This document shows, piece after piece, positions 1,861-56,579 of a stretch of DNA of 64,000 nucleotides; positions within the stretch are counted from its first letter, which is position 1; each line of letters opens with the position of its first letter. Under the pieces are notes generated by a model. It was not told the DNA's origin. It ran no database searches and saw only the letters and a program-made list of their open reading frames with translations. Origin of the DNA: Cymbomonas tetramitiformis (taxonomy: Eukaryota > Chlorophyta > Pyramimonadophyceae > Pyramimonadales > Pyramimonadaceae); the NCBI GenBank assembly GCA_001247695.2, contig LGRX02027218.1:1-64000 (forward strand). Reading direction: 5' to 3'. Position numbers and translations under genes: made by a program.

Positions 1861-1862
1861 AG

Positions 1863-6081: not shown

Positions 6082-6194
6082 CTGGGCCTTACGGTCCCTT
6101 TGGACTTATAACATTTGTGTCTCTAGGGTTTGGGGTTGGGTGTCCTTTCTTGGGATGCTGCCTTGGCACCTCACCTCTTCGGGGTGAGGTGGTG

Positions 6195-6462: not shown

Positions 6463-6467
6463 ATTAT

Positions 6468-6868
6468 AGTTGTTCCGCTAACGATGTTGTTTTATTTGTC
6501 ATATCTATATGTTTCAGTATGTCTTCAGTGAGTTGTGTGTTTCCACTGCTGTTATTTCTGCGTGTGTGGGTGGGTGGGTGGGTGTAAAGAGGTATCAGGC
6601 ACTTCATTGTAAGGTTCACATCTCACAATGGAAAGGTCAAAGGCACAGCACACAAACAAAATCATCCAAATGCCAAACCTACCACCTAGATAAACATCAT
6701 ACAGATTCCGAGCGTTCACTCATGCTGATAATCATGACTAGCCCTGCAAGCAATTCCGTAGCCCTGCGAGCCGTGCAAGGCAACCACCATCCGCTGCAAC
6801 CAACTGCATGCTCCATGTAGCATCCTCCTCCTCCTGAAACAATCGGTCTTGCCTGCGCTGTACACAAC
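6468..6868. other. Spacer, nothing recognised
   Basis: About 400 bp between two mobile elements. It contains a short GTGGGTGG run (6565-6585). No gene is seen. Confidence 0.5.
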
Positions 6869-6870
6869 TA

Positions 6871-7793: not shown

Positions 7794-7795
7794 TA

Positions 7796-31031: not shown

Positions 31032-31109
31032 GAGCGGAACCAGCTCCCGGATTTCGTGCGGCATTCGCACTCCCAACCCGACGCCATTCCACACTACGTT
31101 CTTCCAGAG

Positions 31110-32454: not shown

Positions 32455-34197
32455 TAATAAATTCCCCAAATTTCGCTAAAATTCACCTAAATTTATTTCG
32501 CAAATTTCGCATGGAGGCCCCTAAATTTCTCGCGAATTTCTCCGAAAATTTGCCCCTCTAAAATAACTGCCCAAATTTCGCATAAATTTCCCAAAGTTTT
32601 AAAGGGGGTTTACAACTTATATCTGATACGTTTGATAACTTGAAATGACGACATTGAACTCCTCTACACGCGACACGAAATTACGCGACGAAATTGCGCG
32701 AAATAAGGTATTTATGCATGGTTTGAGGCTTCTAGCATGCATGCACAATGAATGTGGCTGTAGTGGGAACGGTATGTGCGACAGTAGGCCGAGGACAATA
32801 GGTACTAGTGGGAATAGTAGGTACCACAAGAAATGGGTATCGGATTTTGGGTTTTACTAATCCTATCACAACAAACAATATTGTTGGATTTGGCACGCCG
32901 ACAGTGTCATCATCATCTGTGTCATCACCGATATGGTTCGACTACTATGACTTCTTCACTGTCATCAGCGCCATCTCCGATATCGACTTCGGTAGTCAGA
33001 CAGTTCATAGCATCTGTCATTTCCACATCTGACACCTTAGGGGCTGTCATCACATTCTTTCGGCGGAAGCTATAACACTTCGTATTATCTTGTGTATAGC
33101 TTCACAGTTTCACGGTTGACATATGCGAGCGTAGCACCTTGTCTTGTAGTGCTTCACTGTGTGTTTGTTTTCACAGGTTTGCGCCCACCACCGGCCTAAG
33201 GTGGTTATTTAAAACCGCCAATTATGGCTGGCTAAAGCCTTTATAGGGGCTCGGGGCTGAAGATCGGGGCATGAGGTTCTAGGACGCACTAGTCACGAAA
33301 GGGGTAGAGTGAGAGAGAGGATGATTTTCCGTACGTGAGCACAATTGCCTAGGACTAAGATGGACCGGTCTAGCTAGCCGCAGTCTCCGAAGCAGCACGC
33401 GCGTCAACATCAAGCCTCACGACACGATCGCCACCCTCTCTTACCCTATCCTATTTCGCGGCTGTAAATATATCGTAATTTCGCTTCGTGGCTGTAAATG
33501 TATCGTAAAATATATCGTCGTGTTTGTCTATAAACGATCGGTACGTATGCCAAGTTTCAGCCGGAAAGACCCCGTGACTCAAAAGTTATTCAAGGTCAGG
33601 AAACCCTATTATTTACGGTTAGTATATAGCCACAAGAAATGGGTATCAGATTTTGGGTTTTACTAATCCTATCACAACAAACAATATATCGTTGTGTTTG
33701 TCTATAAACGATCGGTATGTGTGCCAAGTTTCAACCGGAAACTCTTCAGTTTCTTCTTCCTCAACTTCACTCTCGAATCCATCATCGTTATCCGCATAGC
33801 AACTAGCTAGTTGACTAGCCCAGCCTTCATCCCCCATTTCGACTGTTCCTTGGTGCGGTCGGGTGCGCTGCGTGTCAAGTCCTGCTTCTTTGTTGATATG
33901 CGAACTCCAAGACCTTACGAGCACAACGAAACCGTGCAGAACTGTGGTTTCATGTTGTGGGCGCGATCAGACGATTGTACAAACGGAGTGTAAGCCGTAG
34001 GATTGCGGGGGATCGCGTAAAAAGTCGCGAAATTCGTCGATCGCGTGGGTTTCGTCAAATTTCGCGACTCGTTGAAGATTCCGCGGTCAAATTTCGCGAT
34101 TTTACCCCCCAAATTTCGCGAAATTTCAAAAAAATTTGACCGGAGAAAAAGCACCCAAATTTCGCAAAAAAATTCGCGAAATGTGGGGAAGGGGCTA
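32455..34197. mobile_element. hAT-like non-autonomous element
   Basis: The 8-bp duplication ATTGGAGC lies at 32447-32454 and 34198-34205; an 8-bp duplication is the hAT hallmark. The ends TAATAAATTCCCC and the complement of TAGCCCCTTCCCC are imperfect inverted repeats. Both ends are packed with the word AAATTTCGC(G), typical of hAT subterminal transposase sites. The interior has two pairs of direct repeats (about 32823-32880 with 33631-33690, and 33512-33568 with 33688-33745) but no recognisable transposase. Confidence 0.85.
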
Positions 34198-36740: not shown

Positions 36741-39326
36741 TCAATCGACAGTACCAAAGTAGTCAGCGGTGGCCTCACGGAAGTCCATCCCATAGTAGGA
36801 AGTAAAGTAACCAGCTCCATAATAGTGCCCCGCATCAAGAGGACCGCTCTCATGTAAGGCCATGCCGTAGTAGAATGCCATGTCAATACCCAAATCCGCT
36901 TGAGCTGCCTGAAATGCTAAAAAGCTCAAAGTGTCAGGAGGCTCGGGCGGCTGAAGCTGTGGCACATCGCCAGCTAACAAGAGATCCCGAGCTGGCATCA
37001 CCGAGTCAATAAAATCATTCGTAGAGTAAAATGACGGAGCCTCCCAACCGAGATCACCACCAGGCGAAGGCATCTCCGTAGCCGGTGCACATGCCGACAC
37101 AGCAGAAGCTGTGGACGCCGAAACAGACACACCTGCAAAAGAAATGCACAACAGAGAGAGCACCGCGAGAGCGCCGATCGCCGGCGTGCCAAAGCCGAAA
37201 GGCGGCACACCGCATCCGATAGCACCGGACGGAGCCCGCGGCTTCACCGCGAAAGTACCGTCGGCGTAATCCTCGTAGTCGTCCGTGTCATAGCCCGTCA
37301 GGTCAGACGGGTGGACGGCGGCGTGATTCACCGTCTGCACGAAGCCTCCGAACTCACCGCATGTCGCCTCTGTGGTGGTCACCCGCGCCGATTGAACTGG
37401 CGCGGGCCGTACATCCTTCGCCTGCGAAACAGGCATAGCAGGGGCCGGCACGGCGGACGCCGATGCCGCCGCACCACCTGCCGGAACCTGCCCCTCCGGT
37501 GTGATCCCCGCCGCAGCGGCAGGGCCACACACCAGAGCCGACGCATGCTCCTCAACCGCACTCCCAGGAACAAAGGATGCGTGAGTGTAATGTACCTTCT
37601 CTTGGGCGGCCTGAACCTCAGTGGTGAGGGCATCAAGCCGCCGCAAGATGTCCTCGTCGTCCGCGCCGTCGGCCGCAGGCTGCACGCTGAAGCCGTAGGC
37701 CGACACGTCGATGCCGCCAACACCGCCCGCGGAAAGCACAGCGGGAGGACCGTAAGCCGACGCCGCACGGGCGAAGGCCTCCGGACCATCATCCGCAGCC
37801 TCCTGGAAGACCTGCACAAGCGCCAAGGTGTGGAGGCCCTCCGCATCCTCCTCCTCAATAGGAATGCAGAAGGCCGCTGCCGTGGCCGACGAATGCTGGC
37901 GCCCACCAAGAGGGCAGTCGCGGTACGCGTGATAGGTGTCACCTTTGCCCGCTTTCCGGCAGCGGTGGCAGAGGGGTTTCGCCTTCATGTTGTCCCTGTC
38001 GAACCCCACAGACGGTGCCGGGTGCACACCCACCCGATGGCCTCGCGGATGCTGCTTACCGCGCGGCTGCGGCTGCGGCTGTCGCTGAACCGCACCCGTG
38101 CGATTGCCTTGCACGAGCGCCTTCAAGGCGGCGATCTCCTCGAGCAGAACGGCGTACTCAGACGACGTGATAAGCGCAGAGGGCTTACCGCTCGCCCCCA
38201 GTGTCTGCTTCTCACGCGCTGACGCCCCCTCGTCCGACTGTGCCCATGCCTGGAAGATGGCCACGACGAGGGCCTGGAGCGAGCGGAGAGTCACCCCGCT
38301 GAGGTCACCCGCAAGCGGATAACGCACCTTCACCGCCGCGTAGAAGACCGGGTCGAGGCGGTTGTACAATGAGAGCTTGCGGGTCTCGTCGGTGGGTTGC
38401 CAGTCAGGAGCGCGGTTATCCCGCACCAGACGTTGCTCGCGAGCCAAGATCGGCTGCGGGTCAACGCCCGCGGGATAACGAAGAGCCGCGTGCTCCTGCT
38501 GGTGACTCTCGCGTAGGGCTGCCGGTACGCTCCCCTTGATGATGTCGATAAGGGCACGACGTCCATCTCGGTCAGCCGAAGAGTCCGTACCCCGAAGCCA
38601 AGTGTCGGCCACAGAGTTGCGCTCCACGACGAGGGCCAAGACGTCATAGAGCAGTCCATTAACCTTCTCGATAACCAAAGAGGTGGGGTCGTCGAGGTCA
38701 AAGGGGGTCAAGTCCAGCCCAGCGGACTCAAACTCGGTACGAAGCTGCACCACCAGCTCGGAGAGGCGGTCCGCGTCGTCAGTGCCACGATAATGATGTT
38801 TCTTGGAACCAAGGATATCCTCGCGGATACCCTTGGCCCAAGCCCGATGTAAACGCCCCTTGTACACCGCGTCAACCGTGGCATGTTGGTCGACTAGGTG
38901 CTTCCGCAACGCGACAGCGGTGTCGGAGTTGCTGGAAGCAGCAGGGGGCACCACAGGTGGGGTGCCAGCGGTCGGAGTGTCCCGAACCGCATCCAAAAGC
39001 CGTATTGAGGCGTCCAAATCGGAGTCCTTCAATAGGCGTTTGCGAGCTCGAGTAGATGTTGCCATACTGTTGAAAGCCAGAGAAAAGATGATGCGCGGCA
39101 GCACGTTTGGGTGTTGTGGCGGAAATGGAATGAAGACGTAACGGCAGAACGTGCGGAGCGGCGAAAAGAGCGTGGGGCACTTGCAAATGTCGATGTGGTC
39201 GAAGGTGTCCGGAGCACCAGCCCAAAATACGTAAACCAGCGGGATCAGTGCAGGCAGAACAACGCAAATGAACATTGCCACAACCGAGCAATAGCAACGC
39301 GCGGTGCCCATGACTCGCAGCCGCAA
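36741..39326 (-). CDS. Gag-like protein with zinc knuckle and two hydrophobic segments
   Basis: 861 codons from the first ATG. An inner ATG at 39065-39063 (MATSTRARKRLL, codon 88) is an equally plausible start. The upstream 87 codons include a clear hydrophobic segment (VVAMFICVVLPALIPLVYVF). The body is helical and capsid-like. Near residue 455 there is a variant zinc knuckle, CHRCRKAGKGDTYHAYRDC (C-x2-C-x9-H-x4-C), preceded by an Arg/Gly/Pro-rich basic stretch, as in nucleocapsids. Near residue 715-735 a second hydrophobic segment (AIGALAVLSLLCISFAG) appears, then an acidic, Tyr-rich tail. No protease, RT or integrase is present. It is the only gene of its element. A truncated paralogue is at 40559-41253. 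Confidence 0.82.
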   Translation of the reverse strand: MRLRVMGTARCYCSVVAMFICVVLPALIPLVYVFWAGAPDTFDHIDICKCPTLFSPLRTFCRYVFIPFPPQHPNVLPRIIFSLAFNSMATSTRARKRLLKDSDLDASIRLLDAVRDTPTAGTPPVVPPAASSNSDTAVALRKHLVDQHATVDAVYKGRLHRAWAKGIREDILGSKKHHYRGTDDADRLSELVVQLRTEFESAGLDLTPFDLDDPTSLVIEKVNGLLYDVLALVVERNSVADTWLRGTDSSADRDGRRALIDIIKGSVPAALRESHQQEHAALRYPAGVDPQPILAREQRLVRDNRAPDWQPTDETRKLSLYNRLDPVFYAAVKVRYPLAGDLSGVTLRSLQALVVAIFQAWAQSDEGASAREKQTLGASGKPSALITSSEYAVLLEEIAALKALVQGNRTGAVQRQPQPQPRGKQHPRGHRVGVHPAPSVGFDRDNMKAKPLCHRCRKAGKGDTYHAYRDCPLGGRQHSSATAAAFCIPIEEEDAEGLHTLALVQVFQEAADDGPEAFARAASAYGPPAVLSAGGVGGIDVSAYGFSVQPAADGADDEDILRRLDALTTEVQAAQEKVHYTHASFVPGSAVEEHASALVCGPAAAAGITPEGQVPAGGAAASASAVPAPAMPVSQAKDVRPAPVQSARVTTTEATCGEFGGFVQTVNHAAVHPSDLTGYDTDDYEDYADGTFAVKPRAPSGAIGCGVPPFGFGTPAIGALAVLSLLCISFAGVSVSASTASAVSACAPATEMPSPGGDLGWEAPSFYSTNDFIDSVMPARDLLLAGDVPQLQPPEPPDTLSFLAFQAAQADLGIDMAFYYGMALHESGPLDAGHYYGAGYFTSYYGMDFREATADYFGTVD

Positions 39327-40167: not shown

Positions 40168-41253
40168 TGCTGAAATCTGTATAGGCAGCCCTGACTGGGA
40201 GTCCCGGTCAGGCCCCTATGACAGATTCCTAGGACCAACACTGGACTACTGACTGATCTGTAGGTTCGTACTGTGACACACGCTGTGTCACAGGTAGGCT
40301 AGACACCGAGACCGTCCGAGACCGTTCCGGGTGTATCTAGCTTAGGGTTTATTTATCTGACACAGTTTATCCACAAGAGTACGGGACTATCTGATATCTG
40401 GTGTACTAGGATATTCCGGTAGGTCGTGGCCCCATCCACGTTTTCATTCCACTTGCTATCTTGGCCATGATTGGCTAAGCAGCCGCTTGAAGAGGTGGTG
40501 CGCACTTGCGCGTTTGGGTGCGACTAGGATTTGGAGATGATTTTACGGTAGACGTCTTTTGCGGCTGCGAGTCATGGGCACCGCGCGTTGCTATTGCTCG
40601 GTTGTGGCAATGTTCATTTGCGTTGTTTTACCTGCCCTGATCCCGCTGGTTTACGTATTTTGGGCTGGTGCTCCGGACGCCTTCGACCACATCGACATTT
40701 GCAAGTGCCCCACGCTCTTTTCGCCGCTCCGCACGTTCTGCCGTTACGTCTTCGTTCCATTTCCGCCACAACACCCAAACGTGCTGCCGCGCATCATCTT
40801 TTCTCTGGCTTTCAAAAGTATGGCAACATCTACTCGAGCTCGCAAACGCCTATTGAAGGACTCCGATTTGGACGCCTCGATACGGCTTTTGGATGCGGTT
40901 CGGGACACTCCGACCGCTAGCACCCCACCTGTGGTGCCCCCTGCTGTTTCCAGCAACTCCGACACCGCTGTCGCGTTGCGGAAACATCTTGTTGACCAGC
41001 ACGCCGCTGTTGACGTGGTCTACAAGGGGAGGTTGCATCGGGCTTGGGCCAAGGGTGTCCGCGAGGATATCCTTGGTTCCAAGAAACATCATTATCGTGG
41101 CACTGACGACACCGACCGTCTCTCCGAGTTGGTGGTGCAGCTTCGGACCGAGTTTGAGTCCGCTGGGCTGGACTTGACCCCCTTTGACCTCGACGACCCC
41201 GCCTCTCTGGTTATCGAGAAGGTGAATGGGCTCCTCTATGACGTCTTGGCCCT
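40168..41253 (+). mobile_element. Truncated second copy of the RecQ-inserted LTR family
   Basis: The 5' LTR at 40168-40421 is followed by the 5' end of the same gag gene (frame open from 40559, inner ATG about 40820). The match ends abruptly near 41253, within the capsid region. It lies head-to-head with the minus-strand copy, 449 bp apart. Scattered substitutions show it is older. Confidence 0.88.
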
Positions 41254-41450
41254 CGGGGCATGACGTCTTGACTCCTCTATGACGTCATGCCCCGAGGCGT
41301 ATGCCCCATGGGGAAGTGGAAGCGTGGTGGTCCTACGCCGGTCCACTGCGCCTCGGCCTACGGTCCACTGCGCCTCGGCCCATACGCCTCGGGGCATGAC
41401 GTCTTGACCCATGGGGCATACGCCTCGGGGCATGATGGACCTGTGCCAAC
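41254..41450. repeat. Cluster of short direct and inverted repeats with TGACGTCA palindromes
   Basis: The words CCTCGGGGCATGACGTC, its complement, GGCGTATGCCCCATGGGG and GGTCCACTGCGCCTCGGCC recur several times on both strands. TGACGTCA is an ATF/CREB-type palindrome; any function here is speculative. Confidence 0.7.
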
Positions 41451-43161: not shown

Positions 43162-45624
43162 ATGGAGCCACAACCGTCCGAACTGGAGCCCTTAAGCTGC
43201 GATATCGAAAAAAATATGCTTACAGAAGGGGAAGCTGCTATTCCGAGAACAAAAGGTAGTGTGGATTTGCTTTAGACTTTTCGATGCCAGGAAAACCTGA
43301 GATGTTTTCTAGCTGTCCCAACAGATTCTGATCCCGCTTAAAGGCTTTTCCCTATAACGTTTGAGGGCTAGCAGGTAAAGAGGAGCAAGAAGGCCTTCGT
43401 GAGATCATAGCAGCGCTTTTGAAAACCGAGCTGTCCTCTTTCAAAAGAGAGCAGGATGATAAGCTGCAAGCCAGCCTCGCAGTACTGCAAGTCAGCCTTA
43501 ACGAAGCGCGTGATCAGGCAAAATTTAAACAAAGCTTCGGTGATCGCAAGGTATAGCTCTCTGCAAAATTGGTGTCTTATTTCCATATCGCAAGCGCGAA
43601 CTTTGTCCGTGGTCTGCGCAGCCCTTTGTTGAGCTGAGACGAGCGGCAGTTGTCTGCGCGGCCCTTTGTTGAGCTGAGACGAGCGGCAGTCGTCTGCGCG
43701 GCCCTCTGTTGAGCTGAGACGAGCGGCAGTCGTCTGCACGGCCCTCTGTTGAGCTGAGACGAGCGGCAGTCGTCTGCGCGGCCCTCTGTTGAGCTGAGAC
43801 GAGCAGCAGTTGTCTGCGCGGCCCTCTGTTGAGCTGATACGAGCGGCAGTTGTCTGCGCGGCCCTCTGTTGAGCTCAGACGAGCGGCAGTTGTCTGCGCG
43901 GCCCTCTGTTGAGCTGATACGAGCGGCAGTTGTCTGCGCGGCCCTCTGTTGAGCTCAGACGAGCGGCAGTTGTCTGCGCGGCCCTCTGTTGAGCTGAGAC
44001 GAGCGGCAGTTGTCTGCGCGGCCCTCTGTTGAGCTGAGACAAGCGGCAGTTGTCCGAGTATGGGCTTCACTGTATGTTCAATCACTTGCAGCTCGATCCC
44101 AAGCACTATGTCTATTTTTATCCTCTGGAATTACGTTTATGAAGCCATGACAACCCGTTTATGAAGTCAAGCCTTACCCCAACCCCATCCTCCACTTGCC
44201 GGGTCATCCAAATGCAGTAACTGCGCCATGCCTCTCACTGTCGCGCCGTTCGCCTGCAGGCCATATCGGACCTTCTGCTCCCAGCAGCTCTGAAGCAGAG
44301 TTGCCCACGCGCCCTGAACCTTGTTGCATGGTGGAGAAAGCCTGGCTCTACAAGGGTCCTGGTGGGGCGCGCGTTTGGACTCCCCGGCGTAATATACTGA
44401 CAGGCGCTCGAGGAGCTCGTGAAAACCGAGGTGGCCACCAAGTTCCACCGGCTCGACGGATTACAGAAGCGCGAGGAAGGTATCATGTCGGCAAAGGACA
44501 AGCTCGAGGTGAAGGAAATGATCCTCATGAAGCGCGAGATCCGGGAAGAGCTGGCGACCCTCAAGCGACTTCGAACATCCGTTACAGGACTGCAAGTAAG
44601 TCACGTGGAATGCTCGTGAAAGTTACCACTCCTCATTTTTTTAAAGTAAAAAACGCATATTTAGCTGAAGCAGATGAGCAGGTTTCCAGTGTTTTCAGCT
44701 TCAAGTGAGATCTGTGGGATTCGCGCAAGGCCTCCACTCCAAGTCTAAAGACGGAATTGAGTCCTCGCTCGATATTCGAACCTTTGTGGGTGCCAACCAT
44801 TTGTATCTCACGAGTGTGAGGAGTTTTCGTGCCAGGAGAGAGTGGTGAACCTGGAGCAGAAGCAGGGGCTCCTCAAGCAGGCGCTGGAGGTTGCGACGAG
44901 CGCCATGCAGAAGCAGGTGGTTGAAGCTGTCTCCAAGTGCCAGATCGACATGCAACCCTTCGCGGCACAGCACGAAACGGATACGCACAATCTGAGCCAA
45001 GCGCTCTCTGTGGCGGTGGCCTCCCTGAGTGATGAAATCAACTCCACGAAGACCACAATGAATCATATGCTCAAAGCTCACATGCCGGAAATAAACGGCA
45101 AGGTTAGGGAAGTTGAGCAAGCGGTGAAGAACGTACAGCAGGAGGTCGCAGATGACATCCAGAGCATTCGACAGCAGGTTCGCGGGAACTTGAAAGCGAT
45201 AGGGGTGGAAGTAAAAGAGTCCCAAAAGCACGTCGATGAATTGGGAGATGAGATCCTAGACAGACTTCAGGACGGCACCGTGAGCGGTGGCGGGGCCGAT
45301 GGCGATGCGCTACTACAAAAAGCCAAACAAGACATGGACACTGTGAATCGCACTTTAACCTTGAACATCACGGCAGTGAGTGACAGCGTCACCTGGTTGC
45401 ACGACCGCGTCGCTGGGATGGAGAGCAAAAGCTCCGACAGCACAATGATAGTGGAAGAGATTAATGCTAAGCTCATCGACGTGCAGCCGAAGATTCAACT
45501 GCTTTCCTCAGGCATGCAGGACGTGAGGATGCAGGTAGAATCTATTCAGAGTAGACTTGCCGCTGTGGAGCGCATGGAGAAACTTGAAAAACTGGAGAAA
45601 ATGGAACAACTGTTTAGCGATTAA
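43162..45624 (+). CDS. Predicted coiled-coil protein, four exons
   Basis: Exons are 43162-43255 (ATG, MEPQPSELEPLSCDIEKNM), 43375-43550, 44404-44595 and 44836-45624 (stop TAA). All introns are GT..AG and all phases agree, giving about 416 residues. The sequence is rich in Glu, Lys, Gln and Leu with heptad-like spacing throughout (REIIAALLKTELSSFKREQ, REIREELATLKRL, KVREVEQAVKNVQQEV) and ends in KLEKLEKMEQLF. Long coiled coil is therefore likely, suggesting a structural or tethering role. I recognise no family. Intron 2 (853 bp) contains the 40-bp minisatellite. Additional small exons inside introns 2 and 3 cannot be excluded. Confidence 0.72.
43608..44052. repeat. 40-bp minisatellite, about 11 copies
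   Basis: The unit, with core GAGCTGAGACGAGCGGCAGT then TGTCTGCGCGGCCCTCTGTT, is repeated head to tail with few substitutions. It lies in intron 2 of the coiled-coil gene. On the minus strand all three phases are open, giving a 40-residue periodic frame over 120 bp; this is a by-product of the unit and not evidence of a protein. Confidence 0.93.
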
Positions 45625-48562
45625 GTTTTTTGAGTCTGCTGTCACGATGATGTTGCTGGCGACAAGCTGATAACATTGGCAACGTGTCTTGTAAATACAG
45701 TTTACAAAAACGGTGCAGCACATCGATACAGACCTTCCTTATTTCATGACACCCTTCCGCATCATATTCTTCATAATCAAGAAGATTATGGTGACTAGAT
45801 GATTCTCTATCCACCATCCTAAAGTTGCCGACTGGACAGTCCACCCTAACACCTGAATTCCTGTCTCTACTTCCTTTGAGGGTCAAATATGAAGTCCTCC
45901 TTAAAATTTTCACGCATGGCTCTTCCTGGACATTAATTTATGATGTGCATCATAACATTATGCAGAACATGTCATAATGGCATGAAGTAAAATCATAAAC
46001 AGCGGTGAGATAAGGGCATGAATGTGCCCCCAAAATCAATACCTATCAATCGGGGGTATTGGAAATAAAATACTTTGGGGTGTTGTGCGCTTACTTTATC
46101 TGCATGTGCCTTATTGTGCTTTGCACTCGTTCTGCTGTCGTACAACATGAGAAGGCCCACGGAAACTTTCCCACTTCCGCTCATGTGGGTGCAGTGTGAT
46201 GCGATATGTTCTTCGCGCTGGAGCAGAGTAAATAATTCATTCCATGAATGTGCAACAACACTTGCCTATGTGACCAACGAAGCATGCAGTCAAGAGCGCA
46301 CTTCAAAAAAAAAAAATCTCTCGGGAAGGCCAACGGACCATTCATATCTGCTCTCTCGGCATATTTGATATTACCGGGTCTTTAGAAAATTACAAAAATT
46401 TAATTGGTTTGCTCGATTCCCAGTGGTGAAAAAAAACAAAAGTCAATTAATTAATTAATTAATTGTAGGAGTCGGCCGTAACACTCATACTTAACAACTA
46501 TGCGAGACTACGGATGGGTCATATACGGAGCTGCATATATGACTAACTGCCTAGGTACGACTGCTAGGTCAGCTCTTCAGGCATAGAAACTGCTATGCCC
46601 AGACTCAATGCACATATTTGCAATAAGAATTAGGTTATACTACACAAGTGACCTGGGACAGGTGGTGATGGATCCCTTCATGGAGTTGCGGGGTGGCGGC
46701 GATAGGGAAGGGGCGATGCTTCTACGGGTTAGAGCAGAAGCAAACCAACTTCTTTGCAGCATTGTTGCATCTCTGGAAGCGCCTTTTTTGTGTCGCGAGG
46801 TGTATTTTTTTTGTCGTGTCGCAAACAGATCCGATTATACTCAACATTATACACCGACGGTTCGCAGCTTTTTCAAAAAAAAGCTGCAAGGCCCTGCGTT
46901 TCCCTTATAGGAGCGAAACAGGTTTTCCTGGAAAAAGTGACATCGACGCACACGATACTACCAGAACTGTCCACCTTTGGGGCCCTTTTTTACGGAAACA
47001 GTGTGATTTCCCTGTCAGATCGGGAGTAACCGCCCATATATAATTATATTGCAGTCCACACCGGTCACCTTAAGATGGCAAGCAGGAGAGTTATACAAAT
47101 CGGTGGAGCATTGCCGCCAATCAGAGACGCATAGAATATTCCTGGGCGTAGTATCGAATTATGGATATTCATGCAGAAGTTATCAGCGCGACAGATTTCA
47201 GATGGCGTATAAAAGAGATTTCCGACTGATCGCCAATCAGAGGAGCCATGAGATTAGATAAACTCCATGAATATGGGTCACACGCGAAATACCATAAGCT
47301 GACTGTGCACGTACAAGGAGCACGTTTTTTTTGTATAATTATAGAAGGCGCACGTGCTACAGATTTCAGGGTGTTTTACATGAGATGTTTTGGACTGATC
47401 GCCCATAACCGCCAATAAGAAGTGCGAGCGCCTGAGATAGGCACCATGAATATGGGACGACAAGGGAAAGGGATCACACGACAAAAACGAGATGGTTTGC
47501 AGACGATGGATAAGCCAATCAGCGACGCGATCAGTTTCGATTTATATATTGGTAAATTAAAAAACTGCACCACAAAAAGCCCTTAAGTGTGGCTCCCTCG
47601 CGACAAATGCGATGCGACAGGTTCCAGACTTTCGCAACATGCTGACATGGCATGGGTTTGCGACACGACAAAAAAAATTCACCTGGCAGACATGCTGACG
47701 TGGCATGGGTTTGCGACGAAGATTACAGTGTCACAGTTGAATGACACACCCGAAACACTGTGTCTGTCATCAACTTTCATTCTGAATTTTCGCTACAGGT
47801 ATCTCCATCCGCTATCTTCATCCAGACATGAGACCCACGCGGGCCGCGGCTGGCTGATTTCACATATCAGATATTGACTCACACGTTAATTCATTAAGCT
47901 TTCGTTTTGCGGCGCACCTGACACCGTTGCCTGCTGTGTCCCGTTTTGTTCTGCTGAATGTATCGTGCATACTAACTATTTCCCGGTTAAATCCCATCAT
48001 CCTTGCTGAGTAGCGTTTCCTTGTTTTACAAGTCACGTTCGTTGTTGCGCTTTGTCCGATGCCGCCAGCAACATTCGGTTGCTGGCGCCCCTTGCATGTC
48101 TTCGTAGAGGGCAATCTTGTAGCGAGGCTGACTGACGGGCTGTACTGCTGCCCAACGGATTTGTTGTTGTTACAAGCCCTCACTGACTGATATTCTTCAG
48201 GAATTTGCTATTTGTTTTCAAGCGCCTGTTTTGTGTTCGTTCTGCGTGTTTCTCGTATGGTGTTTTTTTTTCGAGGGCGATATCTGCACAGATTGTGCAG
48301 CGTGGGTTCGAGTCCCACCACTCTCACTGACTTTGCTCTCTGTAATTTTGCAGGATATCCTGAATGCCTGTTTCGCATTCCTGAATTCCTGGCCTGTTTC
48401 GCATTCCTGAATGCCTGTTTCGCGTGTGTGCTGTTTCTCGTTGCGTGTGCGGTTGGTTTGTCGTTCATCTTATTTCTGACATGTTTGCGTTTACCGTGTG
48501 CAGGTATTTCAACTATTTCATGCTCGTTGGCGATACGCATGTTGCTGTGTGGAATTAGAAAA
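45625..48562. other. No gene recognised; short repeats and a tRNA-like arm
   Basis: A minus-strand open frame (45614-45913, MKILRRTSYLTLKGSRDRN) ends convergent with the coiled-coil gene but has no recognised domain. Visible repeats are TTAATTAA at 46442-46465, a degenerate pair at about 47185-47280 and 47355-47460 (both with ACTGATCGCC and CATGAATATGGG), and a 27-bp pair (CATGCTGACATGGCATGGG) near 47639 and 47690. Confidence 0.45.
48279..48331 (+). other. tRNA-like 3' fragment (variable arm and T arm)
   Basis: CTGCACA-GAT-TGTGCAG forms a 7-bp hairpin. It is followed by a T arm GTGGG-TTCGAGT-CCCAC containing a perfect pol III B-box (GGTTCGAGTCC) and a possible acceptor strand CACTCTC plus A. 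This is how the 3' half of a class II (Ser/Leu/Sec-like) tRNA looks. No matching 5' half (GAGAGTG...) was found upstream or downstream, so I call it a fragment only. Confidence 0.4.
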
Positions 48563-48651
48563 ATAATTAAATTAGATTATTTCTTTGTGATTTTAGATTA
48601 ACTCAATTTCTTGTGAATTTAGATTAAGTTTTCTTTATGTCATCCGGCTAT
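48563..48651 (+). repeat. Left terminal inverted repeat of the MULE-type element
   Basis: It pairs with 53525-53613. The innermost 28 bp (ending TTTATGTCATCCGGCTAT) are identical; the outer part is about 75% identical. Three TTTAGATTA-type words occur at regular spacing, which is what repeated transposase-binding sites look like. Confidence 0.88.
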
Positions 48652-48736
48652 TACCGGTGGTCCTTTTCACGACTCGTGTTCAAAGTGTTCAAATAATGTG
48701 CACACAGGTCAAACGCTGTAGTTCCCGCTTGCCATC

Positions 48737-49477
48737 ATGAGGAAGCCTCCAAAAAGCTTCAAGAAGGTTTGTCTCACTTGTGATAATGGTGGGCGCCGTT
48801 GTAATAGACACTCCCGGCGTGTTCTGCTTGAAAATAAGGCCCCCCACTATCAACCCACAGCTTTCAAAGGCACTGTATTCGACGCGTATGTCCAAACTGG
48901 CTTCCGGCTAAAGTATACAGACACTGTGAACCTATGGGAGAGTGACGATAGTGACGGTAACCCTATATGGGACTTTCGTAACCGCTATGTGTATCTCGAA
49001 TACACGGAGGGTATGCCTTGGGGAGGGGTTGTACCTTCACGTGGGAACTGGGGATATTCACCGTGCCAGCGACACTTGTTCTCTGGGTCGTTTCCCTTGT
49101 TTCACTACACTAACCATGTTGCAGGGTGGCAACTCGACGATATTTTGCAAACTTTCTTATCGGTGTTATACAACCGGGAAAGAAACATGTCATACATGGC
49201 TCGATTCTTGTATTGGTTATCACTATTAGCTACTAGGGAGCACCGTAGCGTCCACCATTGCTCAGCGGGCGCTATGCTTACAATTAGGCAATGTGGAAAC
49301 ACTATTGGCAAACTTTGTGCAAGTTGTGCTTCAGAACTAACTGTGCACAATAGGGGGTACGATTTAAGGCACGAATGGTGTGCTTCATCACCTACGGGGG
49401 TGAGTCTATGCAAATACGTTATGGTTGACTCTCCTGATTTCGCAGAGGAGTTCTTACCTTGCACTGTTGTACGTTAA
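48737..49477 (+). CDS. Unknown Cys-rich protein of the MULE-type element
   Basis: 246 residues from ATG (MRKPPKSFKKVCLTCDNGG), 85 bp inside the left inverted repeat. The N-terminus is basic with a possible zinc-binding cluster CLTC...CNRH (residues 12-24). The middle is rich in aromatic residues (WGYSPCQRHLFSGSFPLFHY). A second CxxC occurs as LCASCASE near residue 195. There is no signal peptide, membrane segment or known domain. Its stop TAA (49475-49477) overlaps the stop of the opposing gene in the palindrome TTAA. Its position suggests an accessory factor for transposition or for the modification modules; that is inference only. Confidence 0.7.
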   Translation: MRKPPKSFKKVCLTCDNGGRRCNRHSRRVLLENKAPHYQPTAFKGTVFDAYVQTGFRLKYTDTVNLWESDDSDGNPIWDFRNRYVYLEYTEGMPWGGVVPSRGNWGYSPCQRHLFSGSFPLFHYTNHVAGWQLDDILQTFLSVLYNRERNMSYMARFLYWLSLLATREHRSVHHCSAGAMLTIRQCGNTIGKLCASCASELTVHNRGYDLRHEWCASSPTGVSLCKYVMVDSPDFAEEFLPCTVVR

Positions 49478-50235
49478 ATATAATGTGGTGGCCAATACAC
49501 CGGGGCTGGTTTGCTTAGACGCCTATCATACATTTTGTATAAAGTAACGCAATAGCGCACTCCCTCAAAACCTTCAGAAGCTACTCTATGTTTGCACCGC
49601 GCATCGCACTTTAAAACCTTATGGCTTTCGGAGAATTGGAGAAGGGTGCCCTTGCTATCCTCTCTAGGCGACTCCATCTCCAGAACCGCGTTCTTGTAGT
49701 TTCCAAGAAAAATTATGTATTCATGTGACACATCTTTTCTGTCCTCGTGTCGCTTCACTTCGCACTTCCCGGCTAGCATGCACGACACATACAAGCACCA
49801 ATCGCCGTCTCGCTTGTAATCCGCGTCTATTATTTCTAAGATTTGACCTGCTAGGATGTAAAGCTCTTTCTTCCAATACGGCTTGCTTGCACTTGTTAGC
49901 GGATCGTCCATGTAAACTCCTTTTTTCTTGTGCCAAGGGTGGGGCGTCCCGAAAGCACATGTGCCATCTAGCTTAGGGGCAAACCCCTCTTGCTGCACTG
50001 TTCTCCCCATGTTAAACCACCACCCAACATTCCATCCCTCCTTCCCTCCTTTCTTGCCTTTTGCCTCGTTTGCGCAGCCACGCTCTATTATCTTGCACGT
50101 TTGTGCATGCAACGTTGCTTCAAATTCCGTGAGTAGCACCTTTAGCCTTTGGTTATCACTTATGAGCACCGGCCGCCTGTTTCCGCGAATCCCACAAAAT
50201 AAGTCCTCGATCCTTGAAAGATGCAACGTTGTGCT
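49474..50235 (-). CDS. 2-oxoglutarate/Fe(II) oxygenase-like module (TET/JBP-like)
   Basis: Same frame as the transposase, open from 50235 (after a TAG at 50236-50238) to the stop at 49474. There is no good ATG at its start, so it is probably translated as part of a longer product. Counted from the TTG at 50226, the region near residues 157-182 reads EVKRHEDRKDVSHEYIIFLG, giving the HxD iron-binding pair (H160, D162). The distal histidine lies in CKHRV (H213), and the 2OG-binding arginine follows in GVRYCVTLY (R224). The order and spacing HxD...about 50...H...about 11...R fit 2OG-Fe(II) oxygenases. The closest match I know is the TET/JBP group, which oxidises DNA bases and is found with transposons in fungi. 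AlkB-like or prolyl-hydroxylase-like enzymes are alternatives. Confidence 0.62.
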   Translation of the reverse strand, partial: STTLHLSRIEDLFCGIRGNRRPVLISDNQRLKVLLTEFEATLHAQTCKIIERGCANEAKGKKGGKEGWNVGWWFNMGRTVQQEGFAPKLDGTCAFGTPHPWHKKKGVYMDDPLTSASKPYWKKELYILAGQILEIIDADYKRDGDWCLYVSCMLAGKCEVKRHEDRKDVSHEYIIFLGNYKNAVLEMESPREDSKGTLLQFSESHKVLKCDARCKHRVASEGFEGVRYCVTLYKMYDRRLSKPAPVYWPPHYI

Positions 50236-50830
50236 CTACGCCATCATAAATAAAAGGTACGCTCCCAGCACTTTCCGGGTATCCTCTGTCTTTGTACAGC
50301 AATTTGTGAAACTCACTAACACTTTTCTTTAGTAAAACTTTTGTTGTCGCTGAGTTGAAAAATATATACCAGGCTTCAACTTCTCCTAAACTACGGTCGA
50401 ACCCCGGATACTTTGCAGGCGGTAGCAAAATCTTTAAGCCAAGTCTTTGGAACGCACTAGCTCTACTATCCCCAACCACAGGACGTTCGAACGAATGCAA
50501 TAGCTTCAAACACACGATCGAGGCGTTGGATTGAAGACACGCAGCTAACAAAGGTTCGCACTTCCCTCTTGCATATGGCAAGGACGATATTATGATGTCT
50601 ACTTGCGGGTTGAATTCTGCCCACTTGATTTTCTCTAAGTCTAGGCGTCTTATGCCTTGCGCAGGATGCTTATCGCTCAGAAAGATCGTCTTCGGTTTGA
50701 ACCGAACTAGGTTGTTGTAAACGTAGCGAGGTCCCTTACCACAGCAAAAATCCCCAATTTTTTTCCGTGAAACAAACTGCCAATAACTGCTAATAGAGGC
50801 GTGTATTGTTGTGCGATTGTGGGATAAAAA
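50156..50830 (-). CDS. DNA methyltransferase-like module (ATG-less frame)
   Basis: A frame of about 225 codons without a single methionine, in the -1 frame relative to the transposase and overlapping its C-terminus. Class I methyltransferase motifs can be read in order. The SAM-binding motif I is IGDFCCGKGPRYVYN. An acidic residue after strand 2 appears in TIFLSDKHP. The catalytic motif IV appears as VDIIISSLPYA, in the place of (D/N/S)PPY. A block LKLLHSFERP...SR...FQRLGLKILLPP...EAWYIFF then resembles phage-type adenine methylases (LL..FL.S..R...VL..R...AWFVW). The first proline of PPY is replaced by leucine (SLPY), so activity is uncertain. Translation would need a frameshift from the transposase at the A-heptamer (plus 50758-50764), or the frame change is a mutation or sequence error. 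Confidence 0.6.
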   Translation of the reverse strand, partial: FLSHNRTTIHASISSYWQFVSRKKIGDFCCGKGPRYVYNNLVRFKPKTIFLSDKHPAQGIRRLDLEKIKWAEFNPQVDIIISSLPYARGKCEPLLAACLQSNASIVCLKLLHSFERPVVGDSRASAFQRLGLKILLPPAKYPGFDRSLGEVEAWYIFFNSATTKVLLKKSVSEFHKLLYKDRGYPESAGSVPFIYDGVEHNVASFKDRGLILWDSRKQAAGAHK

Positions 50831-53433
50831 CTAGTGCCTTTATCACATACCCTTGGTATCGTTATTTTAAATGGTAAATTTTTCATAGGAGCACACCTCG
50901 TTGACAACGCACTCCGTTTTCGTTTCGGAATCAACTTCCTCGCGTTGTCGTCGTTTGCATTGTCGTTCGCATTGTTGTCCACAACGCGCTCCGTTGTTTC
51001 ATACGGTTCAATCTCGTCGCATGTCGCAATCTCCGCGTTCACATTGTTTTGCCCTATGGGTTCAGTATGTTGGCATACATCGGAGAGTGTTGGCGACTGG
51101 TTTGAAAAAAAGATTTCGTCCACCCATGCGTCGTAAGCTACCATTGTATTATGCCTATCACAGCACACTTCGAGCCCGCTGTTCGTAGGCCGGATTGAAG
51201 CTAACGCGGAAAAAAATAAAGCAAGTTGACCTTCTTTAATTGCATTCTCACTCCCTAAGATATGTACGAAATATGATTTCAACAAAATCAAGAGCTCTCC
51301 AACTTTATATTGCGAATACCCATCGCTGATACCCGTCGCTGGAGGGTGTTCAGGGTCGCGCATAAGGGCGAGGAACTTTACCACAAGGGGAGCAATCTCT
51401 TTCCTTTTATCCGCGATAGTGGAAGCACTCAACTTCTCGAAGGTCTTAAGGGAGGGAACGACATAGGAAGGACTGTCTGTAACCCCCAAGACGCCGGTCG
51501 TGCGCGTCATAAGCTCGAGCATGTTGTTGTCAATCATAAGTAGCGCCTCCCGCCAAATAGCTTGTGTAATAACTGGAGTCGTAGGTATTGGGTGTTGCCC
51601 GTCGTAGATCGTCTCCTCGTGCATGTATTTTAGCGCAGAAGGATGGAATACCTCGAGTTGGAGTTGCTTACGCAGGGTCATCTCGTCTTTCACGTGTCTA
51701 TTCACGCACTCGGGACTATTCTGCGTAGATTGGATCCCTTCTGGCATGAAGCCGAGAACCCACCCACCCCACTTGCCCCACCAAGTCTCCACGAACCAGT
51801 TGCAAATATACTCTTCATCACGCTTGTATAGTTCGATGAAGAGCTTGAATGCACTATCACGAGCACCAACGATGGTGATGTTGTGTATTTCCGTAACGCC
51901 ATGCTTGAAGCCGTTAACGTTATGAGCGTCGTTGAATAGCGCGGTCTTCTCGTTAAGCTTCATCATGCAATGCGACCAACATATCCCTTGCGTAATCTCT
52001 TCCGCGACAAGTGTACAGAGGTTCGTAGGTAACCTCAAATGCTCTAGGACATGCGTGATGGTTTCCGGAAGCTTGGCGTTAGCGTTGAAGAAAGCGAGGG
52101 AGTGATCCAAAGTATGATAACGAGGTTCCCACACTTTCTGGAAACCAAGTTGCATAGCCGCGATCAAGCAAAAGTCCACTATTTGCGAAGCATAGGCGTC
52201 CTCGTGCGATTTGATGGCGAGCGCCCCGAGACGAAAACGCTTATCCAAGTAGGAAGACCCGTTGCATTCAAGGGGTAAGCCTTGCCAGTTCGTCTTGTAC
52301 GTGTCGTCGCGTGAGCGGTGATCCTTTGCGAGAAGTACCTCGAGTTTCCCCCAAGTGGTGTAAATCACGCACCACCTTTTGCGTTTCTGCGCTGCGACAT
52401 AATCCTTGACGAGTTCGGTGTAGTTCTTGTAAAGGGCACGCAAGTTCAACTTCCCTTTGTAAAACCGTTTCGAACGCGTACTCCACCCTTGGACGACAAG
52501 CATGTTCTCTAAGATATGCACGAAGTACTCAGCAGACTCGCAAGCAAGAATTGAGTTGAAATGTGCTTGAAGGTTCCGTTCATAAACGGAAAAGTCTTCA
52601 TTCCAACCCGCCAGCTTCCAAGTAGTAAGCTCATCTTGGGTTGCTTGGGCTTCGAAAGGAATAGGAGGCAGGGTGTTCGCGGAATTCTCGGCGTAATGTT
52701 CCACGGTTTCGAAGCCGCTCGGTTGGAGTACTTGTCCTTCAAACATGCAAAGCGTCCCCGCCGTTTTGCGATCGGTCACGGGGATGGCCAACAAGTTGGA
52801 GGTCTGGCAAACCTCCATGAACTGACCGCAAGTCTTTATGGTTTTAAGCCCCAAGATTTGTTTGCGATTGTTGTACACAAAGTTCTTTATGACCTTGTAC
52901 TCAACGTCGTCATCGGCTTCCATGGCTGTGGTGACTGCGGTACTAAGCTTCTTAAAAATGGCTTTAGGCGGAAGCTTTTCGTGGATCGCCTCCTTACACT
53001 TGTCCTTTACAACTTTCGACATACCCTTTCCTATGAAATTAGTATGGTCGTGTGTCCCACGGGAGTACAAGTTGCATGTAACAGTAGGGCCTAAGGTCGT
53101 CCCCTTGACAATTTTATAGTGAACTCCACAACCGTGAGTAAAGTTTAAAGAACACTTGAAGTTTTGAGTCACGGCAGAGGTTTTTTTCGATTTATATTGC
53201 TTGTTAGCCATGGTCACACCCTCAGGGCTCAAGGTTGCCATCATGTCTTGGCACTCTACAAAAGATACACCGTTCAAGACCGTACTCCACACTATGGGGA
53301 CACGGCTACGCTTCCCCTTCCCCTTTGGTGCAACGAGGAAGTCCTCTTCTTCCTCTTCTTCTCCCTCCGAAGGATATATATCGTCCACATTTTTGCCCGG
53401 GCTTGTGAACTCAAAGCCGTCGGGCTCAGCCAT
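50707..53433 (-). CDS. MULE (Mutator-like) DDE transposase
   Basis: I chose the ATG at 53433 (MAEPDGFEFTSPGKN); the frame is also open from an ATG at 53526, inside the inverted repeat. Numbered from that upstream ATG, there is an acidic N-terminus (residues 47-62), then a WRKY/GCM1/FLYWCH-like zinc finger (C125, C133, then HDH at 159-161), the usual DNA-binding domain of MULE transposases. The RNase H-like core follows: first Asp in DDTYKTNWQGLPL (about 407), second Asp in TLDHSLAFFNA (474), the family's CWSHCMMKL (516-524, C-x2-H), and the Glu in TQNSPECVNRHVK (606). The zero frame ends at 50707 after an A-heptamer. The core is complete, so catalytic activity is plausible. Confidence 0.9.
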   Translation of the reverse strand: MAEPDGFEFTSPGKNVDDIYPSEGEEEEEEDFLVAPKGKGKRSRVPIVWSTVLNGVSFVECQDMMATLSPEGVTMANKQYKSKKTSAVTQNFKCSLNFTHGCGVHYKIVKGTTLGPTVTCNLYSRGTHDHTNFIGKGMSKVVKDKCKEAIHEKLPPKAIFKKLSTAVTTAMEADDDVEYKVIKNFVYNNRKQILGLKTIKTCGQFMEVCQTSNLLAIPVTDRKTAGTLCMFEGQVLQPSGFETVEHYAENSANTLPPIPFEAQATQDELTTWKLAGWNEDFSVYERNLQAHFNSILACESAEYFVHILENMLVVQGWSTRSKRFYKGKLNLRALYKNYTELVKDYVAAQKRKRWCVIYTTWGKLEVLLAKDHRSRDDTYKTNWQGLPLECNGSSYLDKRFRLGALAIKSHEDAYASQIVDFCLIAAMQLGFQKVWEPRYHTLDHSLAFFNANAKLPETITHVLEHLRLPTNLCTLVAEEITQGICWSHCMMKLNEKTALFNDAHNVNGFKHGVTEIHNITIVGARDSAFKLFIELYKRDEEYICNWFVETWWGKWGGWVLGFMPEGIQSTQNSPECVNRHVKDEMTLRKQLQLEVFHPSALKYMHEETIYDGQHPIPTTPVITQAIWREALLMIDNNMLELMTRTTGVLGVTDSPSYVVPSLKTFEKLSASTIADKRKEIAPLVVKFLALMRDPEHPPATGISDGYSQYKVGELLILLKSYFVHILGSENAIKEGQLALFFSALASIRPTNSGLEVCCDRHNTMVAYDAWVDEIFFSNQSPTLSDVCQHTEPIGQNNVNAEIATCDEIEPYETTERVVDNNANDNANDDNARKLIPKRKRSALSTRCAPMKNLPFKITIPRVCDKGTSFYPTIAQQYTPLLAVIGSLFHGKKLGIFAVVRDLATFTTT
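50758..50764 (-). promoter_or_regulatory. Candidate -1 ribosomal frameshift heptamer
   Basis: In the transposase frame the mRNA reads GGA AAA AAA UUG, so A AAA AAA is in the X XXY YYZ register. A -1 slip continues as AUU GGG GAU UUU UGC, which is motif I of the methyltransferase-like module. I did not find an obvious strong downstream pseudoknot by eye. Confidence 0.5.
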
Positions 53434-53524
53434 GTTATTTTCCTCTCGTTTGGCTACGCGACAACTCTTCGCATGGCATGGCGATAGCTCAACAGGTACA
53501 ACGTCATGGATGCATGCACCGGTC

Positions 53525-53613
53525 ATAGCCGGATGACATAAAGAAAACTTATTCTAAATTAACGATGAAAATGGGGTATTCTAAACTTATGAAAAAATAT
53601 TCTAAATTAAATA
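53525..53613 (-). repeat. Right terminal inverted repeat of the MULE-type element
   Basis: Complement of the left repeat, with the same three spaced TTTAGAATA-type words. The first ATG of the transposase frame (53526) lies at its inner edge. Confidence 0.88.
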
Positions 53614-55139
53614 GCCTACCGTTGTTACAGTTCTAGGGTTGCTGCCCGAAATATTATCATGTCCGTGGTGATTACAGCATGATATATTTATGCCAAACAT
53701 GAAGTGTATCCAATATTTATGTGGCATTTTAGGGCATATCACGTTACAGTGGCCCATATCCCCTACAGTGTATTTAGGGTGTTACTTGGCATCAGTAACC
53801 CTGACATAGGTAAAATTAAAGCAGTATAAATATTTTGCAAACATTTTTTAGCAAAACTGCATTTAATTGCACACTGTACGTTACGTGGTTTGCAGGAGGC
53901 ATTTTATACCCCTGACACACACATTTAATTTTAGGGGTGTTACAGGGTGTTACAAGTGCTGCATGAATCAGGGAATATTTGTTGATAGATAAATAATCAC
54001 ATCAGCAAAATAAATTAACCTGATTTTTTCATTTTGAAATCATGCGTGGAGCATTTTTACGCATGGTTTTACAGCCAATATGCACACCCCTATATATTAC
54101 ACACCTAATTGCTCCAACGATATCTGAGAGTGGATGGACTGTGCTCAACAGTTACCAGCTGTTATAATGAGCACAGTATTCTGCCTTCGGGTCTGGAGAT
54201 ATCTCCATCCAGCCCTACAGCATGTTGTCTTATCCTGTTCCCATATCTATCGCCATCTTTGACATTCCACACGCACATGTGTTTGTGGAATGTTATCCAT
54301 ATTATCATGCACACAACGGACAATATAGATGATCAATTCACTCTGAGTCAGTGAATGTCATCACATACAGTAAATGTCGTGTAGTGCAATGTGCAGTACT
54401 TATTGATTAGTACTTTTGCCAGTGTGTGTGTGTGTGTTCACTTTTCACACTTACAGGAAGATAACTTCTGGTATTACAATATTCCCAGATAGTGTTCATG
54501 CAGGATGGTTTCAGCATACCATGTGCTGAATGAATCTAGCATGATATATATCAGGTTAAGAGTTATTGTAATCCTGGTATAATCTCATTCACAATAATGA
54601 GTTGCTGATTGATTTTACATGTAGCTCTGGTGAGTATTCCTTCCAGTAATCCACCATAGAACGATATGTGATCCGAAGAGCATCTCGGCTCCACCGGGAC
54701 ATAACGAGCTAATTATGATGTTAAGACTACTTTCAGGCACCTTATGCTAACATGGTTCTAATATAACCTAGCATTCACTGCAATATGCTCGTGCAATGTT
54801 CAATGTACTGCAATATGATGCTAGTGTACCAGTTGCTAACGTGATCAAACTGGTATATATATACTACAGCTGATATCGTGATCAAGCTGCTTTTGTGATG
54901 CATGCATAGTTTACAATATTGCCTCACTCAGTATAAAATGTATACATGGTGTAATGCTGCATGTATTCACTATGTGCTGCATGTCGGTGAATGCTGCAAG
55001 TGGAGTATTAGTGTGTGTGCATGTGTGTGTTGCAATCATCGCAATCTCAGTACACACATATCTTGCACACTATATTGCATATAAGCATACAATTCTGATG
55101 ATTAGAAATATCTCTGCAGTCACCAGGACATAGTGTGAA

Positions 55140-55240
55140 CTGCTGCAGTATGGTGATCATGCGTCCACTGCAGTATGGTGATCATGCGTCCACTGCAGTA
55201 TGGTGATCATGCGTCCATCATGCGTCCATCATGCGTCCAT
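55140..55240. repeat. 25-bp and 11-bp tandem repeats
   Basis: CTGCAGTATGGTGATCATGCGTCCA occurs three times, followed by extra TCATGCGTCCA units. It lies within copy D. Confidence 0.9.
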
Positions 55241-55949
55241 CCAAAGTATCCCTGCGAGTATACAATTATTCTGCAGAGGATATTGACGCGCGTAACACAT
55301 ATTGTATGTCTCGCTGCATGTAGACGCGTCAGGAATCATGCGCCCTAAAATCGTGCGTCCATTGCATCCGATGAAATCATGACAGGTGCACATCGCGCTG
55401 ACGAGCTAAAATCATCGTAAGTGCGCTTTATTGTGAACGATTCGTGCGGATCATTAGCGAAAATCGATGTCGCCAATTATTTTGCAAAGTATATCATTGT
55501 CGCTGGTGTACGTCGCATGAATGAATGCGAGCGCGCTGTTAAACGAAATTTCGTGCGTCCAGTCTCAGTTGATATGTATCATAAGTACTGACGAGCATTT
55601 TTCGTTCGCGCATCTGCATCTCACATATCGTACCAACCCTGCGAATTTTGACATCATATGTATGCGATCCGTTCACTGTGCGCACACCTTGTCGCTTATA
55701 GTATTAAGACGATTTCTCTGCGAATGTTGTCAGCTGCGAATATGTTCGCGATGATAAATCCTCGCGCAATCCGTGTGCTGTCGATATTCAAGCGTATGTT
55801 ATTATTCGATTTGCAGATATTCAATATCACTGCGAGCGCTGTCGCTTATGCGCAAACCTGCAACCTGCGAACAATACAATATATAGTATGTCTGACACTG
55901 CACTCACTTGAGTTCTCGTTATCGTGCCTTGACGAGTTTAGAATACCAT

Positions 55950-56579
55950 CTATTAGGGCTGATTAGCGAGCCCTTAGTATATCAATGATAAGCTGGTGTT
56001 TATTGAACAGTAAACACGCATGCAACGTATGAGCGGGTGATGAGTGCAGGCTTCAACAGAAGATACTGCTCTAGCTCAATGCTAGCTCATATACCAGATG
56101 TCTCCTATCGCATAGATAGTACCGCCATTGGGTTGTGAACCCGAGACATTGGTTGAACGACCAGTATAGGCAGAACGAATGATGCGTTCGCCCTAATATA
56201 CTGCGCATGCTTGTTCCGCACATGCTAGAAGCGAAGATGATTTCTTGTTTGTACTTCAACATTGTATCTTGCTTTGCCATCTTCGAGTTCGACGTACGAA
56301 CTCTCGATGACAGGTATCATTCAAGTCTTTCCTTGAATAAATGACAGATGATGTGACGTATCATCTCGATGACATGTACAGTCATAGTCGACCGTACTGA
56401 CGACTGCTTGACGACTGTCTGACGACTGTCTGTCATTATAATATATGACATGACATGACATGACATGACATGACATGACATGACATGACATGACATGACA
56501 TGACATGACATGACATGACATGACATGTCTGACAGGTATGACACGTATGACACATGTGTCATCGGTCATAACCCTGACA
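55950..56579 (-). repeat. 5' LTR of LARD-like copy D
   Basis: 630 bp, ending (plus strand) in CATAACCCTGACA. It contains an expanded TGACA pentanucleotide run (about 17 units, 56443-56530). Confidence 0.85.

Follow-up and report, generated by a model that had tools for sequence, protein, structure and literature searches.

Can a eukaryotic DNA transposon own, beside its transposase, both an enzyme that writes a base mark and one that edits it? This question is raised by a locus in the first 64,000 nucleotides of contig LGRX02027218.1 of the prasinophyte alga Cymbomonas tetramitiformis (forward strand; this whole stretch is hereafter the window), where the original prediction had recognized a Mutator-like element (MULE) combining a transposase with methyltransferase and 2-oxoglutarate (2OG)-Fe(II) oxygenase modules. 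A MULE-type transposon owning a methyltransferase-like gene (MTase) and frames with an HxD...H...R pattern (2OG1 and ORF3) indeed recurs in the same genome, in relatives that belong to two families, are flanked by target-site duplications (TSDs) and exhibit purifying selection on these modules. At the sequence level, comparison of the copies establishes the ends, the 9-bp TSDs, the gene content, the recurrence in two families, the constraint on accessory genes and a GT-AG pair common to both families. The window copy is a dead, defective, internally deleted derivative of this recently active composite MULE.

The genome searched comprises 851.7 Mb in 25,745 contigs; the 2023 assembly, a different version, has 914.3 Mb in 35,945 scaffolds, and the alga is reported to be tetraploid (PMC10675990). 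Copy counts in the genome are minimum values, and some of the copies may be alleles, given this reported tetraploidy. A blastn search with the window region returned 87 matches (best 40 of 2,523 candidates scored), namely the window itself, 39 matches to its right part, 3 to its left part and 44 to the terminal repeats. Among the copies, L015 is a whole family-1 element of 8,787 bp that presents, in this order, the transposase, ORF2, ORF3 (opposite strand), the MTase-like gene, 2OG1 and ORF6 (opposite strand). The 441-residue MTase-like frame overlaps the 253-residue 2OG1 frame by 77 nt, in a different frame, and the 905-residue transposase frame contains a PHD finger (PF00628, E=5.3e-12). Profile searches, proposed along with the original prediction, recovered this PHD finger in the transposase of the whole copy and gave no usable match to an oxygenase or to a Pfam MULE family, with the transposase taken whole or in pieces. 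ORF2 encodes a Cys-rich protein of 171-178 residues in copies other than L015, and ORF3 forms a 417-residue frame in L013 and L021; since ORF3 is broken in L015, even that element has a defective gene. A 138-bp direct repeat (95% alike), which varies from copy to copy, lies in L015 (oriented 5422-5802) between the ORF3 and MTase genes.

The second family was reached with protein P0002 (CYMTET_30269, C. tetramitiformis), which gave 140 matches (best 105 of 1,265 candidates scored), and is represented by L032, a whole element of 9,747 bp. It carries the genes of family 1, but with the ORF3-ORF2 block inverted and one extra ORF2-like gene; no PHD finger was found in the L032 transposase frame read. 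The family-2 MTase frame is broken in L032 and whole in L036 (442 residues). An 'open_frame 671' that appeared in matches of the P0002 search was rejected as a natural single frame, as L032, one such place, has separate overlapping frames. Identity between families reaches 49% for the transposase, 52% for MTase, 61% for 2OG1, 74% for ORF3, 56% for ORF6 and 88% for ORF2. These uneven values suggest that cassettes were exchanged between elements, as does a mosaic ORF3 within family 1 (L030). When L013 and L032 are compared, the ORF2-ORF3 block is thus both inverted and closer (88% and 74%) than the other genes. Intact relatives without the modules, which would have refuted the original prediction, did not turn up in the two whole elements read, as both carry the modules, whereas a third transposase family (69% identity; C17475, C25394) gave no credible module match in the 1 kb probed. 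The cassette lies downstream of the transposase, on the same strand and within 9 kb, in at least 46 of 94 transposase matches, a lower bound as C568, scored unlinked, carries the cassette. Full-length MTase frames (1-441) without a stop were found in 37 of 102 matches (best 95 of 723 candidates scored).

Perfect 9-bp TSDs flank five of the six family-1 copies read at both ends (L009, L010, L011, L014 and L015, the exception being the window copy, around which no clean duplication was found) and the single family-2 element read, L032, whose TSD is GGCGTAGCG. The 21 right flanks read are all different. The terminal repeats match over 97 nt with 82-90% identity, and each end bears a three-site array. 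L015 has exactly six TTAGA[AT]TA sites, at distances of 16/37/64 and 16/37/63 from its two ends, and none internally; similarly, GGAATAG[AG] occurs exactly six times in L032, 18/40/67 from both ends, and never internally. Judged by sequence, the end arrays of both families hence have a common geometry and a family-specific motif. Typical features of MULE transposases are a DDE triad with CxxH and zinc fingers of WRKY/GCM-like and SWIM types, and D, D, CW.HC and STQNSPE motifs are, by eye, common to the transposases of the two families. The 9-bp TSDs and long terminal inverted repeats fit the Mutator superfamily and support the assignment of the element to MULE-type DNA transposons. Large internal deletions affect L009, L010 and L014, and a smaller one, in the transposase, L011. 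As L009, L010 and L014 are flanked by TSDs yet devoid of ORF2 and ORF3, ORF3 at least is not needed in cis. All three retain MTase, 2OG1 and ORF6, possibly through a search bias, as copies were found via the right part.

The window copy, whose outer ends (about 48551 and 53620) were set by comparison with other copies, is organized as follows:
48551..53620, no strand assigned: the family-1 element as present in the window, shortened by internal deletion to about 5.07 kb from 8,787 bp (blastn against L015; ends via other copies)
53517..53620, minus strand: terminal inverted repeat on the transposase side, carrying TTAGAATA three times, 16/37/64 from the end
48551..48659, plus strand: terminal inverted repeat on the opposite side, carrying TTAGATTA three times; outermost bases unlike those of other copies, no clean TSD beyond
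51327..53553, minus strand: remnant of the MULE-type transposase, truncated ahead of its SWIM-like and PHD parts
51323..51327, no strand assigned: junction left by the internal deletion of 3,753 bp, from comparison with L015
50159..51323, minus strand: remnant of the MTase-like gene, first ~52 residues gone, one-base frameshift near 50758-50764
about 50732-50752, minus strand: DFCCGKG motif of the MTase remnant, with IISSLPY farther downstream
50177..50369, minus strand: predicted GT-AG intron of 193 nt, which would put MTase and 2OG1 in one frame
49477..50235, minus strand: 2OG1, a dioxygenase-like frame that bears HxD...H...R and is uninterrupted in this copy
48737..49477, plus strand: ORF6, 246 residues, Cys-rich, 56% identity in family 2

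In blastn, this copy corresponds to positions 1-2272 of L015 (94.8% identity) joined to 6026-8786 (99.4%), and its inverted arms (48613-48659 and 53517-53563) are 94% complementary across 47 nt. ORF2 and ORF3 are absent from it, as are the SWIM-like/PHD end of the transposase and the initial ~52 residues of MTase. A natural transposase-MTase fusion (939-residue ORF; 948-residue frame, 50710-53553) was considered and rejected, as this frame spans the deletion junction; the long frame is an artefact of the 3,753-bp deletion, which fuses the two remnants. Minus-strand frames with a DDE/CxxH-like pattern, DFCCGKG, IISSLPY and HxD...H...R do lie between the inverted repeats as initially described. 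The description as a single minus-strand series overlooked the plus-strand gene ORF6; the modules are real, and this copy is defective through its deletion and its frameshifted MTase. Adjoining the element end, at about 48300-48330, is a tRNA-like B-box stretch, perhaps of a SINE; no RNA gene was found by Rfam (46000-56000) or ARAGORN.

Selection was estimated as the ratio of nonsynonymous to synonymous polymorphism (pN/pS), several of the copies being degenerate, which inflates the ratios, and near-identical copies giving numbers that are too small. The strongest constraint is that on 2OG1, with pN/pS of 0.16, 0.07, 0.14, 0.16 and 0.12 in five comparisons with at least 12 synonymous changes each, and no nonsynonymous change in three further comparisons with 1-3 synonymous ones. 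Values for MTase are 0.46, 0.62, 0.44, 0.46, 0.60, 0.41 and 0.43 (0.27 in an eighth comparison with 2 synonymous changes), that for ORF3 between families is 0.29, and those for ORF6 in family 2 are 0.19, 0.21 and 0.19 (0.69 in a fourth comparison with 2). By these sequence ratios, the accessory modules are under purifying selection.

The low-confidence structural model of MTase was compared by Foldseek, and 49 of the 50 rows listed were S-adenosylmethionine (SAM) methyltransferases, with 4nal as the exception (chains of complexes were judged by title and length). This model supports a class I SAM-methyltransferase with a Rossmann-like SAM-binding fold. The best Foldseek rows listed were the RNA adenine methyltransferases KsgA, Erm, RlmJ and METTL5; for VIA, the best of the 50 rows listed included the DNA C5-methyltransferase M.HhaI as well as spermidine synthases, and the list also comprised METT-10, CAPAM, two aminotransferases and the unnamed 9hcg_t. 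The SSLPY motif is present in six aligned MTases and in family 2, save one degenerate copy (L034), and resembles the NLPY of KsgA, as seen in L039. Homology with KsgA was not found at the profile level (hhalign against 20 KsgA sequences, probability 0.7%, with shallow alignments). Searches of the accessory proteins against families and PDB sequences gave no match, or weak and implausible ones only. Similarly, no viral or phage relative was confirmed in three scans of viral contigs, and in tblastn against phages P0003 had no match and P0007 matched 8 records at E=8. Beside the right-half copy L031 (G000:C16379:18900-28400, reversed, 2-3280), we also noticed ORFs with DNA-methyltransferase-like motifs (WCNPPS; GSGKT, SDVPWG), perhaps those of another methylase-carrying mobile element.

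In 2OG1, residues H163, D165, H216 and R227 are invariant in three lineages, and in ORF3, residues H214, D216, H313 and R324 are invariant in five sequences; the H-to-R spacing is 11 residues in both, a typical spacing, and MTase, ORF2 and ORF6 gave no such pattern. Motif and constraint together suggest that 2OG1 is probably a 2OG-Fe(II) dioxygenase, and ORF3 is, by its sequence, a second protein bearing the pattern. Four 2OG1 members matched neither Tet_JBP nor any other Pfam family at E up to 10, and ORF3 gave no profile match. Homology was looked for between 2OG1 and ORF3, as well as between ORF2 and ORF6, and found in neither case.

MTase and 2OG1 are possibly joined into one protein through a predicted intron. 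In L015, CCTG|GTATATTT...GCGGAAACAG|GCGG would excise 193 nt and yield an MTase-2OG1 reading of 604 residues (603 amino acids plus stop), and in L036, CGTG|GTACGTTT...GCGGAAACAG|GCGC would excise 184 nt, again leaving MTase-2OG1 in frame. The gene model P0002/CYMTET_30269 reads ...GDVEAW|RKRLPISD, the same junction as in L015 and L036. Other in-frame GT-AG pairs are also present in both copies, and since chance in-frame fusions are frequent (179 of 571 pairs), the frame alone is weak and the weight lies on the position common to both families. The unspliced MTase end is conserved in P0005-P0007, which suggests that both forms may be used.

Several known systems resemble this element in part. 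DNA transposons of fungi encode a TET/JBP dioxygenase thought to aid escape from methylation-based silencing (Kojima, 2025, PMC12730594) and are alike in joining a dioxygenase-type gene to a DNA transposon; they differ by their hosts, fungi and not algae, by a TET/JBP domain that is unmatched in the Cymbomonas element, and by belonging, for the lineages named in the available text, to groups other than MULEs, with no MTase partner described there. MuDR families of Phytophthora carry a SET histone methyltransferase gene (PMC12730594), and are thus MuDR/MULE elements with an epigenetic enzyme; this is a histone enzyme of SET fold, and the available text mentions no MTase-dioxygenase pair. Retrotransposons of dinoflagellates and charophytes encode C5 DNA methyltransferases (PMC5890265) and are likewise algal transposable elements with a methyltransferase, whereas the Cymbomonas element is a DNA transposon whose MTase belongs to a different family and which also has oxygenase-like genes. 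In Arabidopsis, VANDAL elements show that MULEs can carry anti-silencing genes, the accessory protein VANC countering silencing in relation to short motifs in the element's own non-coding DNA (PMC5735166, PMC10398659). The likeness is one of role, not of protein. VANC is not known to act as methyltransferase or oxygenase. No MULE carrying a conserved cassette of this kind, possibly fused by splicing, was found in the literature searched, most subscription papers and bioRxiv being outside its coverage.

Elsewhere in the window, opposite ORFs at 36741-39326 (minus) and 40559-41263 (plus) share a near-identical N-terminal sequence and are perhaps two copies of one repeat, and two groups of similar ORFs, at 4585-6081 and 31011-32561, show a Cys pattern like that of zinc knuckles and are probably retroelement copies. 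A 40-bp unit is repeated in tandem at 43612-44054 (11.1 copies, 95% matches), and a perfect ATGAC repeat occupies 56445-56527 (16.6 copies).

What would the element gain from these genes? That the composite MULE writes and edits a base mark in nucleic acid, for self-protection or control, is in our view close to an even question that leans towards yes. Intron retention would give a free MTase and intron removal an MTase-dioxygenase fusion; nucleic acid, and most probably the DNA of the element itself, would be the target of base methylation by the MTase, and this mark would be oxidised or removed by the dioxygenase. The transposase and/or the Cys-rich proteins, on the three-site terminal arrays, would direct the modification, whose likely benefit would be that the element evades silencing by the host or that its ends are licensed to transpose, in a VANC-like role. 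A more elaborate version, which we hold to be less likely than not, is that regulated splicing produces a single polypeptide that methylates and then oxidises, generating a hypermodified or self-erased base on the element's own DNA; this would be an element-encoded, phage-like system, aimed by the terminal arrays, in which ORF3 would perform a further oxidation.

A number of observations count against such a writing and editing element. Motif IV of DNA amino-methyltransferases (N6A/N4C) is [DNS]PP[YFW], and that of the MTase is SSLPY; moreover, Foldseek (KsgA/Erm) and VIA (spermidine synthase, M.HhaI) disagree on its nearest family. Structure prediction, suggested at the outset for both modules, supported the methyltransferase fold and gave no such support to an oxygenase fold for 2OG1, whose AlphaFold2 model has a predicted local distance difference test score (pLDDT) of 37 and no oxygenase among the 50 Foldseek rows listed. 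Searches of Pfam, PHROG, NCBIfam and PDB likewise yielded nothing usable for 2OG1. A loose HxD...H...R/K pattern is conserved in the transposase as well and is hence not specific. The pN/pS of ORF6 in family 1 is 0.77, 1.41 and 1.06 (undefined in a fourth comparison), that of the transposase 0.60 and 1.38, and copies deleted for ORF2 and ORF3 have moved. Finally, CpG observed/expected is 1.09 in the element versus 0.97 in the remaining window, without depletion, and none of 47 singleton changes is a CpG transition, just 5 of the 47 being C>T or G>A of any kind, so that nothing points to 5-methylcytosine; a CpG-deamination signature in the element was accordingly rejected.

Instead, the enzymes might write and erase an m6A-like mark on RNA, or act on a chromatin protein, for example by stabilising element transcripts or altering histones at copies. 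We hold this to be rather unlikely: the RNA adenine methyltransferases at the top of the Foldseek rows listed, METT-10 and CAPAM in the VIA list, the KsgA-like SSLPY and the PHD finger of the family-1 transposase all favour it, but VIA places spermidine synthases and M.HhaI among its best rows, so the model does not choose, and the profile comparison with KsgA is empty. The weak model of 2OG1, the lack of any family match and the presence of the pattern in the transposase would suit another fold for 2OG1 and ORF3 (e.g., DNA-binding or cupin-like) with HxD...H...R by chance, an explanation made unlikely by the invariance of the motif residues across three lineages and five sequences, respectively, by their typical spacing and by their absence from MTase, ORF2 and ORF6.

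Pack-MULEs capture genes, and the cassette might likewise consist of host or viral passengers of no use to the element, as could be suggested by the inversion and exchange of the ORF2-ORF3 block between families and by the mobility of copies deleted for it. A gene set and an MTase-2OG1 frame relation common to two families about 50% identical, the strong constraint on 2OG1 and the 37 of 102 MTase matches that are full length and stop-free make this quite improbable. Chance nesting or misassembly of unrelated elements, which the fused frame of the window (a deletion product) and the truncation of L031 beside another element's genes could evoke, is hardly credible, being refuted for the family by whole, TSD-flanked elements in two families (L015, L032) and opposed by the 21 different right flanks.

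If the cassette modifies DNA, C. tetramitiformis, a prasinophyte whose genome has many recent copies, would offer a directly testable eukaryotic transposon equipped with a writer of base marks as well as an oxidiser. The family-specific end motifs, in their conserved geometry, form a ready assay for self recognition. If true, this reading would bear on the origin of eukaryotic base-modification enzymes and on the escape of transposons from silencing.

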